Shown here piece after piece: positions 20,058-60,590 of a DNA stretch of 64,000 bases. Below the pieces are notes generated by a model that worked only from the letters and a program-made list of their open reading frames with translations, was not told the origin of the DNA and ran no database searches. Source of the DNA: an uncultured Acidobacteriota bacterium (GTDB lineage Bacteria; Acidobacteriota; UBA6911; CAINFC01). Each line of letters starts with the position of its first letter. Within the stretch, counting starts at the first letter, position 1. Made by a program: the position numbers and the translations under genes. The DNA lies in NCBI GenBank assembly GCA_903847975.1, contig CAINFC010000018.1, positions 1-64,000 on the forward strand, in the 5' to 3' direction.

Positions 20058-22442
20058 TTGAGCGCCGAACCTTCTCCTCCATCCTGCCGGCTTTGCGGTC
20101 TGCCCGTGCCGGCCAGCCGGCAGCGGGAGACGGTCTTCTGCTGCGCAGGGTGCGAGCGCGTTTACGAAGTCTTGCAGAGCCTCGATGAAGTGCAGGGCCG
20201 GGCCTACGTGGAGGCGGCCCGGAGGCTGGGGCTCATTCCCGGCGGGGAGGCCTCGGCGCCCGCTTCGCCGCAACTGCCCGAGGATCCCTCGGCCCTGCGC
20301 CAGGAAAAATATCGGATCGAGGGGCTGTTTTGTCCGTCCTGCGCCTGGGTTCTCGAGCAGGTGCTGCTCGCCCAGCCCGGCATACGGCAGGCCCGGGCCA
20401 ATTTCTTCAGCGGCAGCTGCCTGCTGGAGTACGATCTGCGGCGCAGCAGCGCCGAGCAGATCAACCGGATCCTCTCCCCTCTCGGATACCGCCTTCAGCC
20501 GTTGGAACAGCCGGGCCAGGAGGCGGAGCGCCGCCTTACCTTTGCCTTCATGGTATCGGGGGTGCTCTGCTGCAACCTGATGTCCATCAGTTTTCTGCGA
20601 TATGCCTACAACCTGGGGTGGATCAGCCAGCTGCCCGACTTTCTGGTCTGGCTGGAACTGGCCCTGACGGCTCCTATTCTTTATCTCGGCTGGCTGCCTA
20701 TGCTGCGACGGACATGGCAGGCCCTGAAGCGCGGGCGGGTCCTCATGGATGGGCTGGTCGGCCTGGCGGTCGGAGCCTCCTTTTTCCTTTCTCTGGCGGC
20801 CATGGGCAGCCGGCGCAGCGACATCTACTTCGAGACCTCCGCCGGGCTGGTAACTATATTTCTTTTCAGCCGGCTGGTGGAAGCGCGGCTCCGGCGCCAG
20901 GCCCTGGCCGGCCTGGCCACGCTGATGCACATGCCTGTGCAGCGGGTCCGGCAGGAAGCGGAAAAAGACCGCTTTCGATATCCTCCGGTTGGCGAGATCC
21001 GGCCGGGAGACCAGCTGGTGTTTGCTCCGGAGGAGCTGGTTCCCTTTGACGGGTGGGTCAGCGGGGACCGGGTTTTCGTCAGCGAAGCGGTGCTGAGCGG
21101 GGAGCCCCGACCGGTCCTCAAAGGCCAGGGGGACCGGATCCTGGCTGGCTCCACGGTACAGGAAGGAGAGTTGCTCCTTACCGTGGAGCGCCCCTATTCG
21201 GATACCCGTCTTTTTGCCATTTCCGAAACCATCCGCCAATCGCTGGAGGCCAATGAAAGCCGGCTGCGCTCGGCGGACCGGATTGCCCAGTGGTTTGCGC
21301 CTGCGGTCCTCCTGACGGCCGTTGCCACCTGGATTCTCCGGGCTTGGCCCCATGGCTGGCCAACGGCCTGGACGCCGGCCGCCTGGTTTCCGGCGGTGGC
21401 GGTGCTGGCCGTCGCCTGCCCCTGCGCCTTCAGCCTGGCCGGTATAACCGCAGTGTCTGCTTGTCTGGGAATGCTGCTCCGGCAAGGCATCCTGGTCAAG
21501 GATCCCGCCCAACTGGAGCGGCTCAGTGGAATCGATGCGCTGCTCTTCGACAAGACCGGCACCATCAGCCAGGGCCGGCTCGCCCTGGAGCAGATTGCCT
21601 GGCGGGGCGGGCCGCAGCCGGAGCTGCTCGGATGGGTAGCGGCGGCGGAGCAGGGTTCGATGCACCCGGTGGCACAAACGGTTCTCCGCCAAGCCCGGGA
21701 AGAGGGCTGGACCATTCCCGGCGGGCTGCAGGGCAGCGCGGACATTCGCCGCCAGGGCCGCCGGGTCGCTGGTCCTGCAGGGGAAGAGTTTCTGGTGGGG
21801 ACTGCCGATCTGTTTTCCTCCGTCTTCGATTCCCCGGCGGTCGCTCCGCGCCACACCCTGGTCTGGTTCGGCTTCGCGGAGCGGGCCGAGGGCTGTTTGC
21901 TGCTGAGCGACCCGCTGCGTCCCCAGGCTGCGGAGACCGTTCACACCTTGACTCGGCAGGGGTACGGCTGCGGGCTGATCTCCGGAGACCGCCAGGAAGT
22001 CTGCGACTGGATCGGCAGGCAGGTAGGCTTTTCGACTGCGCGGGGCCGCGCCTCGCTGGAGGAGAAAGTCGATGCCGTCCGGCAGCAGGAAGCCTTGGGC
22101 CGCAAAACGGCATTCATCGGCGACGGGACCAACGACGCCCTGGCCATGGACCGCGCCACTGCTTCTGTCGCCCTGTCGCACGGCTCCGACGAAGCTCTGT
22201 CCGCTGCAGGTTTCATTCTGCTTTCCGGGCGGCTCTCCGAACTCCCCTTCCTTTTTCAAACCGGCCGCAAGCTTGCCCGGGTGATCCGCCACAACTACCT
22301 CTGGGCCTTCAGCTTCAATACTCTATTTATTCCTCTGGCCGCCCTCGGCTACCTGACCCCTCTGTGGGCCATGCTGCTCATGCTGGCCAGCTCCACAGCA
22401 GTACTGCTCAACTCCCTGCGCATGCGCCGCCCTGCCCGCTAA
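20058..22442 (+). CDS. ccoI: Copper-transporting P-type ATPase, CcoI/FixI type
   Basis: A 794-residue P1B ATPase starting at TTG 20058, 8 bases after actE. It has an N-terminal Cys-rich domain (CRLCG and FCCAGC), a heavy-metal domain (GLFCPSC), eight expected helices with the ion-site CPC motif (ACPCAF), the phosphorylation motif DKTGT, and the GDGTNDALAM hinge. CcoI pumps copper toward the periplasmic side for CuB assembly in cbb3 oxidase. It ends the respiratory operon, just before the repeat cluster. Its N-terminal CCxGC domain separates it from general CopA pumps. Confidence 0.9.
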   Translation: MSAEPSPPSCRLCGLPVPASRQRETVFCCAGCERVYEVLQSLDEVQGRAYVEAARRLGLIPGGEASAPASPQLPEDPSALRQEKYRIEGLFCPSCAWVLEQVLLAQPGIRQARANFFSGSCLLEYDLRRSSAEQINRILSPLGYRLQPLEQPGQEAERRLTFAFMVSGVLCCNLMSISFLRYAYNLGWISQLPDFLVWLELALTAPILYLGWLPMLRRTWQALKRGRVLMDGLVGLAVGASFFLSLAAMGSRRSDIYFETSAGLVTIFLFSRLVEARLRRQALAGLATLMHMPVQRVRQEAEKDRFRYPPVGEIRPGDQLVFAPEELVPFDGWVSGDRVFVSEAVLSGEPRPVLKGQGDRILAGSTVQEGELLLTVERPYSDTRLFAISETIRQSLEANESRLRSADRIAQWFAPAVLLTAVATWILRAWPHGWPTAWTPAAWFPAVAVLAVACPCAFSLAGITAVSACLGMLLRQGILVKDPAQLERLSGIDALLFDKTGTISQGRLALEQIAWRGGPQPELLGWVAAAEQGSMHPVAQTVLRQAREEGWTIPGGLQGSADIRRQGRRVAGPAGEEFLVGTADLFSSVFDSPAVAPRHTLVWFGFAERAEGCLLLSDPLRPQAAETVHTLTRQGYGCGLISGDRQEVCDWIGRQVGFSTARGRASLEEKVDAVRQQEALGRKTAFIGDGTNDALAMDRATASVALSHGSDEALSAAGFILLSGRLSELPFLFQTGRKLARVIRHNYLWAFSFNTLFIPLAALGYLTPLWAMLLMLASSTAVLLNSLRMRRPAR

Positions 22443-22745
22443 AGCCAAGCCCTGGGGCCCCGAAAAAGGGTCCCGTAAAAGGGGTCCCGGTCCCGTAAGG
22501 GTCCCGAAAAAGGACACCCATGAAAGGGGTCCCGAAAAAGTATTTGGGGGGAGGCCCCATTTATTGGAGGTCCCGAAAAAGGACACCCATTATTGGGGGG
22601 GAGGCCCCAAAAGGCCCCAACGCATAAGAACACCCATTTATTGGACACCCATTTATTGGACACCCATTAATTGGAGGCTCAGGCGCCAGAACAATGGGTG
22701 TCCAGTATTTCCCTCCAGTATTTCCTCCCAATTTAGGGTGTCCAG
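22443..22745. repeat. GGACACCCA inverted-repeat cluster 1, upstream of the REP transposase
   Basis: Four exact left arms GGACACCCA (22512, 22581, 22643, 22658) and a partial one (22630); one right arm TGGGTGTCC (22695) and a weaker one at 22736. They are embedded in imperfect tandem units containing GGTCCCGAAAAAGG and GGGGAGGCCCC (22505-22615). No gene is seen. The 80 bases before the transposase hold its GGAGG site but no convincing promoter. Confidence 0.9.
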
Positions 22746-22826
22746 ATTTTCCCAGCAGAATTTTTCTTCGTAGAATGACCAAGGGAAACGTTATGTCCAT
22801 GGAAGGAATCTAAATGGAGGTTTCCC

Positions 22827-23945
22827 ATGACCATCGCCCGTAAAGATATCGTTGCAAGCGGAGTGGAACGAGCTTATCACTGCACTGTACGTTGCGTTCG
22901 CCAGTCATACCTTTGCGGTCGGGATGCCCAGACCGGTTGCAACTACGAGCATCGTAGGAATTGGATCAAAGATCGTTTGAGGTCCCTAAGCGGACTCTTT
23001 GCTGTGGACATTATTGGTTACGCAGTCATGAATACGCACATTCATGTCATTTCCCGTATCCTGCCCTCAAAATCAGAGGCCTGGACAGAAGAAGAGGTTG
23101 CCCACCGCTGGCTGACGTTATATCCACCACGAGCACGGGAAGGAGAATTGCCGAAACAGGCTCATGAGAGAAAGTTAGCCAACCTACTGGTTGACCCGGA
23201 GCGGGTGGCACTGCTTCGCAGCCGTCTTGCCAGCTTGAGCTGGTTCATGCGCTGCCTAAATGAGCACATTGCCCGTAAAGCCAACCGAGAGGATCGGTGC
23301 AAGGGACGATTCTGGGAAGGCCGATTCAAGTGCCAGGGCTTACTGGATGAAGCAGCGATTCTGGCCTGCCTGACCTATGTAGACCTCAATCCAATCCGTG
23401 CCGGCATGGCAACAACGCCAGAGGAAAGTGATTACACTTCAGCGCAGGATCGGATAGTGGCCAGGCTGGCTGGAATGAAAATGACCAGGATTGGCTCTGA
23501 AAAAGCTCTCCCAATGGTCAATTCTGAGGGAGCGATATCAAAAGATGGAAGCTGCAAGGAATCCTCACCGGAAAATACTCTGGTAGCCCAAGTGCAAGCA
23601 GAACAACAAGCGGATGTCTGGCTGTGCCCAATCAGCGACCAATCGGACAGGGTGGGGGTATTTCGAGCACTGACACTTTCAGAATACCTTGATCTGCTTG
23701 ATGCCACCGGACGAATCGTCCGGTCGGACAAGCGGGGAGTGATTCCCTCGGAACTGGCGCCGATCCTGGCCAGACTGGATGTTAACACGGTGCGCTGGGC
23801 AGAAACGATTCACCAATACAAACGCCTGTTCCGGCGGATGGTTGGTCGGGCGGCAGCCGTAGCTGAGGCGGCACGGACTGCCGGACGAAGGTGGTTCCAA
23901 GGGACCCGGGCCTGTAACTCTGTATTCAGACCAGTAGCCTGTTGA
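22827..23945 (+). CDS. REP-associated Y1 transposase (IS200-like HUH family)
   Basis: A 372-residue protein. The N-terminal domain is a Y1 HUH nuclease: the HIH pair (His71, His73, in MNTHIHVIS) binds the metal, and Tyr184 in TYVDLNPIRAG is the likely DNA-attacking tyrosine. RFWEGRF before it is also typical of this transposase group. A further domain of about 170 residues has no motif I can name. Such single-strand transposases recognise and cut hairpin repeats, and the adjacent GGACACCCA/TGGGTGTCC clusters are the obvious substrate candidates. A GGAGG site lies 6 bases before the ATG. The base composition is less GC-rich than the respiratory operon upstream. Confidence 0.88.
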   Translation: MTIARKDIVASGVERAYHCTVRCVRQSYLCGRDAQTGCNYEHRRNWIKDRLRSLSGLFAVDIIGYAVMNTHIHVISRILPSKSEAWTEEEVAHRWLTLYPPRAREGELPKQAHERKLANLLVDPERVALLRSRLASLSWFMRCLNEHIARKANREDRCKGRFWEGRFKCQGLLDEAAILACLTYVDLNPIRAGMATTPEESDYTSAQDRIVARLAGMKMTRIGSEKALPMVNSEGAISKDGSCKESSPENTLVAQVQAEQQADVWLCPISDQSDRVGVFRALTLSEYLDLLDATGRIVRSDKRGVIPSELAPILARLDVNTVRWAETIHQYKRLFRRMVGRAAAVAEAARTAGRRWFQGTRACNSVFRPVAC

Positions 23946-24237
23946 GTCTCTGCATAAGCAAGAGCGTATCTCTGTTTTTTCCAAGCGGCCAGTTTCATTT
24001 AGCCCTTCATCAACCGGCTGTACGTCCGTCCCTAAAATTGAGTTCCTGCAAACCCATCACTTCCAATTAGGATTGACCTCTCCCGCTCACGGAAATCGGT
24101 TTCCTTCTCAGAAATGGCCGATTGGCATCACCCGACGGGCGTCTCCTGTGAGTCCTCATTTTTCGTTACCACTACTCGCTCGAGGGTCTGTCGCAGAACG
24201 AGCAATGGTTTTAATTCACTGCTAATTGTTAAAAAAA
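23946..24237. other. Noncoding stretch after the transposase
   Basis: No gene, promoter or repeat arm could be supported in this stretch. Short open frames here have no ribosome site or family resemblance. Confidence 0.5.
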
Positions 24238-24312
24238 TTGGGTGTCCTTTTCCTCGGGTGTCCTTTTCCTCTTTTCCTCTTCCTTTCCTCTTCCTTTTCC
24301 TCCTATCCTTTT
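24238..24312. repeat. Inverted-repeat cluster 2: right arms only, with pyrimidine tandem tail
   Basis: TTGGGTGTCC (24238-24247) and GGGTGTCC (24256-24263) are each followed by TTTTCCTC, which is then reiterated with slippage to about 24312. No left arm is present, unlike cluster 1 on the other side of the transposase gene. Confidence 0.85.
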
Positions 24313-24327
24313 CTACTCCGGGATAAA

Positions 24328-31654: not shown

Positions 31655-31760
31655 AAAAGGACACCCAACAAGCCAAGAAAAGGACACCCAACGACAGTAA
31701 TAAAATGGGTGTCCCGTTTCGGGGGGACGAAAAAATGGGTGTCCCGTTTCGGGGACCCCT
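31655..31760. repeat. Inverted-repeat cluster 3 between divergent genes
   Basis: Left arms at 31659 and 31682, right arms at 31706 and 31736. The right edge TGGGTGTCCCGTTTCGGGG occurs twice in tandem (31706-31724 and 31736-31754), so the right arm and its flank were duplicated. The cluster sits between the leftward SUMF1-type gene and the rightward GH106 gene; a TATAAT at 31781-31786 just right of it may be a -10 element. Confidence 0.9.
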
Positions 31761-37637: not shown

Positions 37638-37660
37638 GGATAGAAAAGGGAGATAGAAAA

Positions 37661-37823
37661 GGGACACCCATTTTCCGAGCAATCTCTGAAAAAGTGGGTG
37701 TCCCTGATTGGATCTCCTTGATTGGATCAGGTTACACGGATCACAACGGATTTTTCAGGAAACAGCGGATCAACAGAAAAAAGGACACCCATTTTCCGAA
37801 CTGCTTCAAAAAGTGGGTGTCCC
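37661..37823. repeat. Inverted-repeat cluster 4: two complete hairpins
   Basis: Hairpin 1 has arms at 37662-37670 and 37695-37703; hairpin 2 at 37783-37791 and 37814-37822. Right of hairpin 1 the flank TCCCTGATTGGATC recurs as TCCTTGATTGGATC. Between them 37732-37780 matches the linker of cluster 6 (44631-44670). The rightmost arm lies inside the 3' end of the leftward efflux adaptor gene. Confidence 0.92.
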
Positions 37824-43559: not shown

Positions 43560-43775
43560 ATAAACAGGATATTTTTAGGCATTTATTTATTTGGTTATTT
43601 TATCGGGCTGCTCCCGTGGAATCAAGGAGGGCAGAAAAACAGTTAAAAAAAGGACACCCACTTTTTGGAAGTAGAAAAAGAGTAGAAAAAGGACACCCAC
43701 TTTTTGAACTGCATCCGAAGGATCCGTTGACAAGCAGGATAATTTTGGGCATTTATTTATTCGGACGTTGAGCGA
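43560..43775. repeat. Inverted-repeat cluster 5: left arms only
   Basis: Left arms at 43652 and 43691, both followed by CTTTTTG; no right arm. At 43604-43631 lies a 28-base sequence identical to 44582-44609 in cluster 6. An AT-rich segment of about 30 bases (43564-43593) recurs with changes at 43735-43764. It lies between the divergent TolC-type and NUDIX genes; no gene is seen in it. Confidence 0.88.
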
Positions 43776-44459: not shown

Positions 44460-44755
44460 TGCAGGTTACGCGGAGTGGAAAAAAGGGAAAAAAGGACACC
44501 CATTTTCTGAAGATTGAAAAAAGTGGGTGTCCCTCATCCGTCCCTCATCCGTCCCTCATCCGCTCGTCCCTCATCCGCTCGCGGGCTGCTCCCGTGGAAT
44601 CAAGGAGGGTTGAAAGACAGTTACACGGATCAAGGCGGATTGTTCAGGAAACAGCGGATCGAAAGGAAAAAAGGACACCCATTTTCTGATAAGCCCGAAA
44701 AAAGTGGGTGTCCCTGATCTGCTCTCCCTGATCTGCTCCCTGATCTGCTCCGATT
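44460..44755. repeat. Inverted-repeat cluster 6: two hairpins with tandem tails and the most complete composite unit
   Basis: Hairpin a: arms 44494-44502 and 44524-44532; tail TCCCTCATCCG repeated four times, the last two extended by CTCG (44530-44583). Hairpin b: arms 44673-44681 and 44705-44713; tail TCCCTGATCTGC repeated three times (44711-44752). The 132 bases 44582-44713 (CGGG/CCCG mini-hairpin, linker, main hairpin) form the fullest unit seen. No gene is present. Confidence 0.93.
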
Positions 44756-59456: not shown

Positions 59457-60227
59457 ATGAAGACGGTGGAAGAAAGCGTCATCGCTGCAATGGATGGTAC
59501 CGAGGTGGAACTCTTCCCCTTCCTGCCTTATATCCTGCAGGATGTCTGGGAGATCGGCACCGTCCCGGATGTCGTCCTTGGACTCGTACGCAGGAACGCG
59601 CAGGATCCGGAGCATCTGACGGTACTCGATCTGGGTTGTGGAAAGGGCGCCGTGTCGATTCGACTTGCGGAGCAGCTTGGCTGCACCTGTGTCGGGGTTG
59701 ATGCGATAAGGGAATTTATAGCCGAAGCAGGGAAAAAAGCCCGCGACTACCAGGTTGGGAAGCTTTGCTTGTTCGAAATTGGAGACATACGACAGCGAAT
59801 AGCGACCTTGCCCCGTTTCGACATCATCATCCTGGGCGCTATCGGACCCGTATTCGGCGACCATTACGAAACACTCGTAACGCTCTCCGGCAACCTTGCC
59901 GAGAACGGGCTCATAATAATCGATGACGCCTATATCCCGGAGGAAAGCGATTTTTCGCACCCGGTCATCCGGACACGGTCCGAGGTTTATCGGCAAATTT
60001 CAGATGCGGGCATGACGGTTGCAGAAGAAATAATCCTTCATGCCGCCGACATGAAGGAGACCGACGCAATCCTGTTCGGACACCTTCAAAAACGGTGTCG
60101 GGAACTGATCGCCCTCCATCCCGCCAAACGCCAAATGTTCGAGGAGTACATACAGGCGCAGGAACGGGAAAATTATGTACTGGAAACAAAGGTGATATGT
60201 TCCACAATGGCGATCCGAAGAAGCTGA
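59457..60227 (+). CDS. Class I SAM-dependent methyltransferase
   Basis: A 256-residue cytosolic protein. Motif I VLDLGCGKGAVSIRLAE (about 55-71) and the acidic residue in CVGVDAIREF bind S-adenosylmethionine; FDIIILGAIG is motif post-II. The substrate is unknown. Base and codon use are visibly more AT-rich than in the neighbours and no ribosome site precedes the ATG, which suggest acquisition from elsewhere. The last 42 coding bases are repeated at 60381-60422. Confidence 0.78.
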   Translation: MKTVEESVIAAMDGTEVELFPFLPYILQDVWEIGTVPDVVLGLVRRNAQDPEHLTVLDLGCGKGAVSIRLAEQLGCTCVGVDAIREFIAEAGKKARDYQVGKLCLFEIGDIRQRIATLPRFDIIILGAIGPVFGDHYETLVTLSGNLAENGLIIIDDAYIPEESDFSHPVIRTRSEVYRQISDAGMTVAEEIILHAADMKETDAILFGHLQKRCRELIALHPAKRQMFEEYIQAQERENYVLETKVICSTMAIRRS

Positions 60228-60234
60228 TCTTCCC

Positions 60235-60590
60235 AATAAAGGACACCCATTTTCTCTGAAAAAAGTGGGAACAATAAAGGACACCCATTTTCTCCGTAAA
60301 CACCCAACATTAAGGACACCCATTTTCTCCGCCTGAAAAGTGGGTGTCCTTTATTCCTTTGTGTCCTTTATTCCTTTCCCGGAAAATGATGTACTGGAAA
60401 CAAAGGTGATATGTTCCACAATAAGGACATCCAACATTAAGGACACCCATTTTCTCTGTAAGGGCGAAACAAGCGAAACAAGGACACCCATTTTCTCCGC
60501 CTGAAAAGTGGGTGTCCTTTATTCTTCGGTGTCTTCAAAAGTGGGTGTCCTTTATTCTTTCCTTATTCTTAGGTGTCCTTTATTCTTATT
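60235..60590. repeat. Inverted-repeat cluster 7, the largest
   Basis: Five left arms (60241, 60279, 60314, 60441, 60482), a variant at 60425, and three exact right arms (60341, 60509, 60542) plus degraded ones (60361, 60571). The left edge CAATAAAGGACACCCATTTT-type phrase and the right edge GTGTCCTTTATTC-type phrase are each reiterated. The cluster separates the convergent methyltransferase and DUF5107 genes and runs to within a base of the latter's stop codon. No gene is seen. Confidence 0.93.
60381..60422 (+). repeat. Duplicated 3' end of the methyltransferase gene
   Basis: These 42 bases match 60167-60208 at 41 positions (one T/G change, at 60174 against 60388), in the same orientation and 214 bases away. 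The second copy lies between repeat arms. Confidence 0.93.

Follow-up and report, generated by a model that had tools for sequence, protein, structure and literature searches.

Flank reiteration at the hairpin arms of a Y1/HUH transposase family in an Acidobacteriota genome and in other bacteria

Introduction

In Pseudomonas fluorescens SBW25, the clusters of REPINs, hairpins made of two repetitive extragenic palindromes (REPs), were described as tandem units including their flanks, with short unrepeated stretches between them and a link to the REP-associated tyrosine transposase (RAYT), and a second mechanism was inferred for cluster formation (Bertels and Rainey 2011, PMC3116915). Subsequently, the TIRtrons and TIRYTs, that is, Y1 genes within terminal inverted repeats (TIRs) with dispersed copies, were described with several examples from Acidobacteria, and the portion of that source considered here also reports REP clusters reiterated together with flanking DNA (Di Nocera et al. 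2013, PMC3733652). The TnpA-Y1 subclass 2.3, of a median length of 325 aa, was described as having no REP-like structures at its flanks (Quentin et al. 2018, PMC6006769). Bacterial interspersed mosaic elements (BIMEs) occur as consecutive tandem copies, the E. coli REPs, with GTAG at their foot, undergo cleavage at CT, and little is said to be understood of the spread and cluster formation of REP-type elements (Corneloup et al. 2021, PMC8266576). Here, we analyse a window of 64,000 nucleotides from an uncultured Acidobacteriota bacterium (assembly GCA_903847975.1, contig CAINFC010000018.1, positions 1 to 64,000; contig C18 of genome G000 in our numbering, a genome of 8.13 Mb in 326 contigs), in which small hairpins with GGACACCC/GGGTGTCC arms adjoin tandem copies of their own arm end plus the neighbouring, locus-specific flank, and we associate these arms with a subclass 2.3-like transposase encoded in the same window.

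Reiteration of the Flank at Paired Arms

About 50 stretches with arms were collected, every arm there was read outward into its flank, and an arm was scored as positive when a second copy of the flank head lay within 50 nt with at least 11 matching bases. In this genome, 46 of the 87 paired GGACACCC/GGGTGTCC arms (53%) carry a tandem unit of arm end plus flank, against 5 of 302 displaced positions (1.7%); in the other genomes, mostly metagenome-assembled genomes (MAGs) with one genome per species, 165 of 557 paired arms (30%) are positive against 26 of 2112 displaced positions, and shuffled flanks gave 0–1% positives at the thresholds tested. Flank reiteration is therefore confirmed as real, genome-wide, and present in many other bacteria besides, well beyond the six sites from which the earlier note had started. 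All six are present, the one given as 60345 actually starting at 60344, and the reiteration that the note placed after right arms exists there, with the correction that left arms reiterate their flank too, in mirror image (e.g., GATAGAAAAGGGA, AGTAGAAAAAG, and GCGAAACAAG).

The reiteration belongs to these arms rather than to hairpins at large, given that non-arm inverted repeats in the same DNA (stem of at least 8, loop 3–36) repeat their flank on 1 of 260 sides, a control in which many hairpins sit in genes, where selection opposes duplications. Of the arms that have no partner within 70 nt, most appear by chance inside genes, and 7 of 48 were positive; all seven have the A-rich inner sequence typical of true arms. 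The TGGGTGTCC arm occurs 97+94 times in the genome versus 22+25 times for the reversed control pattern, full hairpins (GGACACCCAN6-36TGGGTGTCC) occur 21 times, and the predicted stems of the arm hairpins have 9–14 pairs. From the base composition around 64 flanks, the arm core reads gaAAAAGT-GGGTGTCC-YTDWTY, with little information beyond flank position +6.

Geometry of the Reiterated Unit

Within a locus, the copies have a common outer end point and differing inner start points. The outer boundary is fixed for each locus, usually 7–13 nt beyond the arm, while the inner one may lie anywhere from a single arm base to the whole half-hairpin, with a spread of 0 to more than 17 nt; most units consist of part of one arm plus flank and not of a whole two-REP hairpin. 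An example is L192:6204-6350, where the flank TTATTCGGTCT follows CC, TCC, or the entire half-hairpin GGGAAAAAGTGGGTGTCC, and the fillers measure one to three bases. Our first histogram of outer boundaries was partly shaped by the detection threshold, the window background giving a similar one, and it was therefore replaced by a threshold-free measure, the exact common flank of neighbouring arms of the same orientation. Over 223 such pairs from other genomes, the distribution is bimodal, with a chance tail at 0–3 nt and a second peak at 7–12 nt, beyond which it drops sharply, leaving a few long tandems; for this genome, the measure gives 7–13 nt of common flank in 15 of 25 pairs. Fillers of 1–4 nt are common at the junctions, and about half of the filler-free junctions have 0 nt of homology, with a mild excess of 1–3 nt microhomology.

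The flanks have the loose consensus YTDWTY at +1 to +6 and become locus-specific from about +7, and no 10-mer flank head is common to two clusters among the 34 examined; the first six bases are consequently part of the element or of its target preference, and the rest belongs to the locus. The proposal that the flank is unique at every site thus holds from about +7 outward and fails for the six bases next to the arm. The companion proposal, that the copies arose in place, is upheld, since flanks of at least 10 nt are never common to loci and units have been gained or lost between genomes about 1.4% apart.

Change between Close Relatives

These two genomes, G102 and G128, provide the comparison of strains for copy-number change that had been suggested as a check. 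Over 3.17 kb, their sole multi-base indels measure 36 and 29 bp, each of them one arm-plus-flank unit, and over 5.9 kb, the sole gaps measure 18 and 10 bp, both in arm arrays; the 18-bp indel lengthened the inner part of a unit and left its outer edge unchanged. The third stretch compared, 4.3 kb containing five arms (L093 versus L179), is free of gaps. All four multi-base indels (in 13.4 kb) thus fall within the 8% of the sequence lying at most 40 nt from an arm, for which the chance is about 5e-5. At the 36-bp site, a third genome, G101, is single-copy, and gain is therefore the simpler reading. Unit number is still changing between close relatives, and these are recent events.

An empty-site comparison in a Pseudohongiella-type genus found relatives without arms, too diverged for placing junctions. 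In that group, a MAG chromosome (L081, 1080-1860) has the conserved motif GGTACGAATTC...AAATCAATT on both sides of an arm array, and in its relatives the motif is single, between the same two genes.

The Transposase and Its Arms

A cognate enzyme seemed to be missing at first, because Pfam Y1_Tnp gave only a truncated IS200-type gene in this genome (L009 1471-1716, G000:C107), an impression dropped when NCBIfam NF047646 revealed further candidates, among them a divergent gene in the window with arm arrays on both sides (22827-23945; 2.4e-9, 37 bits, below the family's 80-bit cut-off). The protein has two paralogues, 49–53% identical, and in an alignment of 31 homologues, with consensus motifs SNHYH, FWEGRF, and YVDLNP, the HuH residues H71 and H73 and the YVDLNP tyrosine Y184 are invariant. 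Its AlphaFold model (predicted local distance difference test, pLDDT, 81.9) has as best Foldseek match in the PDB 4ER8 (TnpA-REP; E 3.3e-4), a REP-associated tyrosine transposase on a REP hairpin, followed by the ISDra2 and IS608 TnpA; unlike this fold search, a sequence-profile search of the PDB found no HUH protein. On the predicted fold, the window protein is a member of the HUH Y1 superfamily (TnpA-IS200/TnpA-REP), and its motifs (THIH, WE, YVDLNP) and length of 372 aa fit a putative assignment to TnpA-Y1 subclass 2.3 (NHYH/WE/YVDLNP), with which it also has in common insertions in a long protein and several divergent copies per genome. In the same genome, there is a second RAYT type of 200 aa (L277 1405-2007, G000:C213), above the NF047646 cut-off and with no GGACACCC arms nearby.

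The association of arms and enzyme is plain. At least two arms lie within 700 bp of 30 of 35 subclass 2.3 homologues versus 0 of 17 Y1 genes of other types (p 1.2e-9); elsewhere, in further genomes, the Y1_Tnp loci mostly had no arms and proved to belong to other subclasses. The arms around the homologues are oriented as terminal inverted repeats, with left arms upstream of the gene 63 times versus 13 and right arms downstream 78 times versus 14, and they form strings of 6–11 arms around the transposase gene. Ten homologue loci (L285-L294) from relatives selected irrespective of the motif all have arms, and hairpin and gene co-occur among 99 relatives (6/6 versus 5/93, p 4e-7). Where a genome has at least one hairpin match, it also matches the protein in 22 of 28 cases (E <= 0.001), several with more than 10 matches, and most of the protein-negative genomes look like single chance palindromes. 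The GGACACCC/GGGTGTCC arms are, then, the ends of a Y1/HUH transposase family, and the 30 arm-flanked homologues correct the published description of subclass 2.3 as lacking REP-like structures; we offer this as an observation on the subclass and not as a defining trait of it. In G105, G110, G114, and G116, there are 18 to 37 matches to the protein per genome, several of them full-length, numbers that suggest active mobility and not a domesticated single-copy gene. Among cultured bacteria, Sulfidibacter corallicola, which has a homologue of the enzyme, and Alteromonas lipotrueiana are hosts rich in copies.

The same stutter is found with other arms. Right of the Y1 gene of L301 (1120-2052), unrelated arms (ACTGTCC) reiterate their flank in up to 10 units, and around the Y1 gene of L313 (961-1920), so do unrelated arms GGTCTGACCCC, which fit the TIR motif GGGGWSAS; in both, inner ends are variable and outer ends constant. 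The process would therefore be tied to this enzyme class and not to the GGACACCC sequence, two examples being few.

Features of the Window

The loci of the window are collected in Table 1. A second repeat, GTTACACGGATCA...GGATTNTTCAGGAAACAGCGGATC, adjoins some of the arms (37731-37775 and 44620-44660); together with the adjoining arm it is 84% alike over 99 bp, and further copies lie on contigs C273 and C166. A segment of about 37 bp from upstream of the first arm cluster near 60 kb (60173-60209) recurs between both clusters (60386-60421), so that an arm array here has a local duplication of greater length. A sulfatase-like open reading frame (ORF), called at 24226 beyond the transposase gene, consists at its N-terminus of translated arm repeat (24226-24318), and its true start is probably further downstream.

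Table 1. Hairpins, arm arrays, and reiterations in the window, with the transposase gene (strand left empty where none is assigned).
Feature	Position	Strand	Details
Arm array upstream of transposase gene	22440..22760		four left arms, GGTCCCGAAAAA reiterations; two right arms, TCCAGTATTTCC x2
Y1/HUH transposase, RAYT-like, 372 aa	22827..23945	+	subclass 2.3 motifs: HuH as THIH, WE, YVDLNP
Right arms downstream of transposase gene, TTTTCCTC reiterations	24239..24318	+	units 24248, 24264, 24272, 24295; overlaps N-terminus of ORF called at 24226
Cluster, two left and two right arms	31659..31754		right unit TGGGTGTCCCGTTTCGGGG x2 (31706, 31736); left unit AAGAAAAGGACACCCAAC
Left-side reiteration GATAGAAAAGGGA x2	37639..37664	-	
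Hairpin between left and right reiterations	37662..37703		
Right-side reiteration TCCCTGATTGGATC / TCCTTGATTGGATC	37701..37728	+	37701; 37715 with one mismatch
Hairpin, no flank reiteration detected on either side	37783..37822		
Two left arms with AGTAGAAAAAG x2	43652..43698	-	units 43670, 43681, spanning 43670-43691
First hairpin of the 44-kb locus, GGACACCCA...TGGGTGTCC	44494..44532		predicted DNA stem 14 pairs, -11.0 kcal/mol
Right-side reiteration TCCCTCATCCG(CTCG) x4	44530..44581	+	units 44530, 44541, 44552, 44567
Second hairpin of the 44-kb locus	44673..44713		
Right-side reiteration (T)CCCTGATCTGCTC x3 (TCCCTGATCTGC)	44711..44750	+	units 44711, 44725, 44737
Cluster, three left arms and one right arm	60241..60377		right unit GTGTCCTTTATTCCTTT x2 (60344, 60361)
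Second cluster	60441..60590		left GCGAAACAAG x2 (60464-60482); right TTTATTCTT at 60518, 60551, 60579, inner ends variable

Proposed Mechanism and Rival Explanations

We propose, tentatively and with a little less than even confidence, that the transposase introduces nicks a set distance beyond the hairpin and that faulty, template-switching repair re-copies the edge. The GGACACCC/GGGTGTCC arms would be the recognised ends of subclass 2.3 HUH/Y1 single-strand transposases, flanking the transposase gene as terminal inverted repeats in full elements, with the small hairpins as their gene-less derivatives. The enzyme would bind the hairpin, either extruded or single-stranded at a replication fork, and would nick the strand leaving the hairpin about 8–12 nt beyond GGGTGTCC. 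Replication or repair over the nick would then re-copy the segment from the nick, which would set the fixed outer boundary, to the end of synthesis or strand switching inside the hairpin, which would give the variable inner one; the copies would be joined via 0–3 nt of microhomology or a few untemplated bases, and repeated rounds would leave in-place tandem units of the arm end and the locus's own flank. Since members of this superfamily are known to cleave a single strand next to a hairpin, which exposes a free 3' end (PMC8266576), the outer boundary may naturally be taken as the cleavage site of the enzyme, and the re-copying as template switching with little homology. Of the two candidates in the earlier note, nick-and-copy by the transposase has thereby gained a cognate HUH enzyme and a fixed outer boundary, the cleavage itself being presumed. 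Several points weigh against our proposal: the outer boundary has no sharp sequence motif and varies by several nt between loci, the mild microhomology excess is equally compatible with ordinary slippage, no cleavage data for subclass 2.3 were found in the open-licence literature, a 4.3-kb stretch with five arms (L093 versus L179) has no gap, the window's own cluster at 37783 lacks reiteration, and most of the compared genomes are short-read MAGs.

The other candidate, slippage triggered by the hairpin, would give the transposase no role after insertion: replication would stall at the foot of the stable palindrome, and the nascent strand would realign on the flank, which would yield tandem duplications. 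The stems of 9–14 pairs and the mild excess of 1–3 nt microhomology are in line with it, and once two units exist, slippage could add more; it does not predict, however, an outer limit at 7–13 nt while the inner boundary is free, half-arms that have no partner within 70 nt reiterate as well (L191, L212, L217), and in its generic form it is disfavoured because other hairpins with stems of at least 8 do not reiterate (1 of 260 sides, many of them in genes). We regard it as rather unlikely. Alternatively, the transposase might excise or copy a one-ended fragment and join it beside a copy already in place, every unit then stemming from its own local transposition. The fragment would have a variable left end and would reach about 11 nt past the arm on the right, thereby including flank, and an arbitrary left end combined with a right end set by the enzyme would fit the two boundaries; the E. 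coli TnpA-REP, moreover, cleaves 5' or 3' of the REP and recombines it in vitro (PMC8266576), and the strings of 6–11 arms around the transposase gene agree with such self-targeted re-insertion. Against it, the 34 clusters have no common 10-mer, so that joining would need to be strictly local, and fillers of 1–4 nt are not expected from HUH strand transfer; we deem it unlikely. That the reiterated flank is simply part of a longer element, several copies of which were inserted side by side, could appeal to YTDWTY at +1 to +6, but from +7 the flank is locus-specific and yet identical within each locus, and G102 and G128 have gained or lost whole units, flank included, in place; it is largely refuted by locus-specificity, and we give it very little credence. 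Chance or low-complexity background has next to no standing: matches are inflated where a flank is rich in T or CT, as some are (e.g., 24248-24318), but the displaced positions (1.7%) and shuffled flanks (at most 1%) refute it, and unpaired coding copies of the arm are mostly without a tandem.

Comparison with Described Systems

The earlier note spoke of REP elements and knew of no common mechanism for them that predicts the reiteration; the view that nothing known resembles it is not supported. Tandem REPIN and REP clusters including flanks were already known (PMC3116915, PMC3733652), and the arms are not classical GTAG- or CGTC-tagged REPs: no GTAG/CTAC foot lies outside the arm in the flank profile, which reads YTDWTY there, and a classical REP identity was accordingly rejected for a hairpin foot with neither the GTAG nor the CGTC tetranucleotide. 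One classical trait is present, namely, a large set of intergenic palindromes scattered through the genome and linked to a Y1 transposase gene that is arm-flanked in the window.

With the SBW25 REPIN clusters, our arrays have in common the tandem palindrome units including flank and the Y1 transposase link; however, the SBW25 unit is a whole REPIN plus flanks, in clusters of up to about 700 bp, whereas the unit here is usually one arm end, often 1–8 nt, plus about 8–12 nt of flank, with the inner boundary variable and the outer one fixed. As in the TIRtrons and TIRYTs, so far as the considered part of PMC3733652 describes them, terminal inverted repeats surround a Y1 gene and copies are dispersed; their common TIR motif GGGGWSAS seems not to be matched as such by the GGACACCC arm of this genome, where A mostly precedes the arms, but GGGGACACCC occurs in some homologues (e.g., L318). 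In that same part of the source, we found no ruler, no analysis of inner and outer boundaries, and no strain comparison. The E. coli TnpA-REP/BIME system likewise has an HUH Y1 enzyme acting on a single-strand hairpin, with a GTAG foot and a CT cut there and no GTAG foot here, and in contrast to the published subclass 2.3, the homologues here are flanked by GGACACCC/GGGTGTCC arms, with dispersed hairpins in addition. A search of the open-licence literature for the arm motif matched only primers and unrelated papers, and a scan of viral contigs for arms gave apparent chance palindromes in phage genes, without copy-number data. Within the open-licence literature, the short single-arm unit, the outer ruler, the subclass 2.3 link, and the strain-level events are new.

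Conclusions

In general terms, TIR-type HUH Y1 transposases may stutter the edge of their own insertions through repeated nicks a set distance beyond the hairpin, the arrays being both a fossil cleavage map and an active local amplification in many bacteria and at least three unrelated arm families, a generalisation that we advance guardedly and at clearly less than even confidence. The arrays would predict where an uncharacterised HUH transposase subclass cuts, a prediction that is testable, and the arms supply subclass 2.3 with the cognate DNA element that it had lacked. Differences between near-identical genomes show how recent the process is, and stutter arrays would naturally give rise to small intergenic tandem repeats across many phyla.
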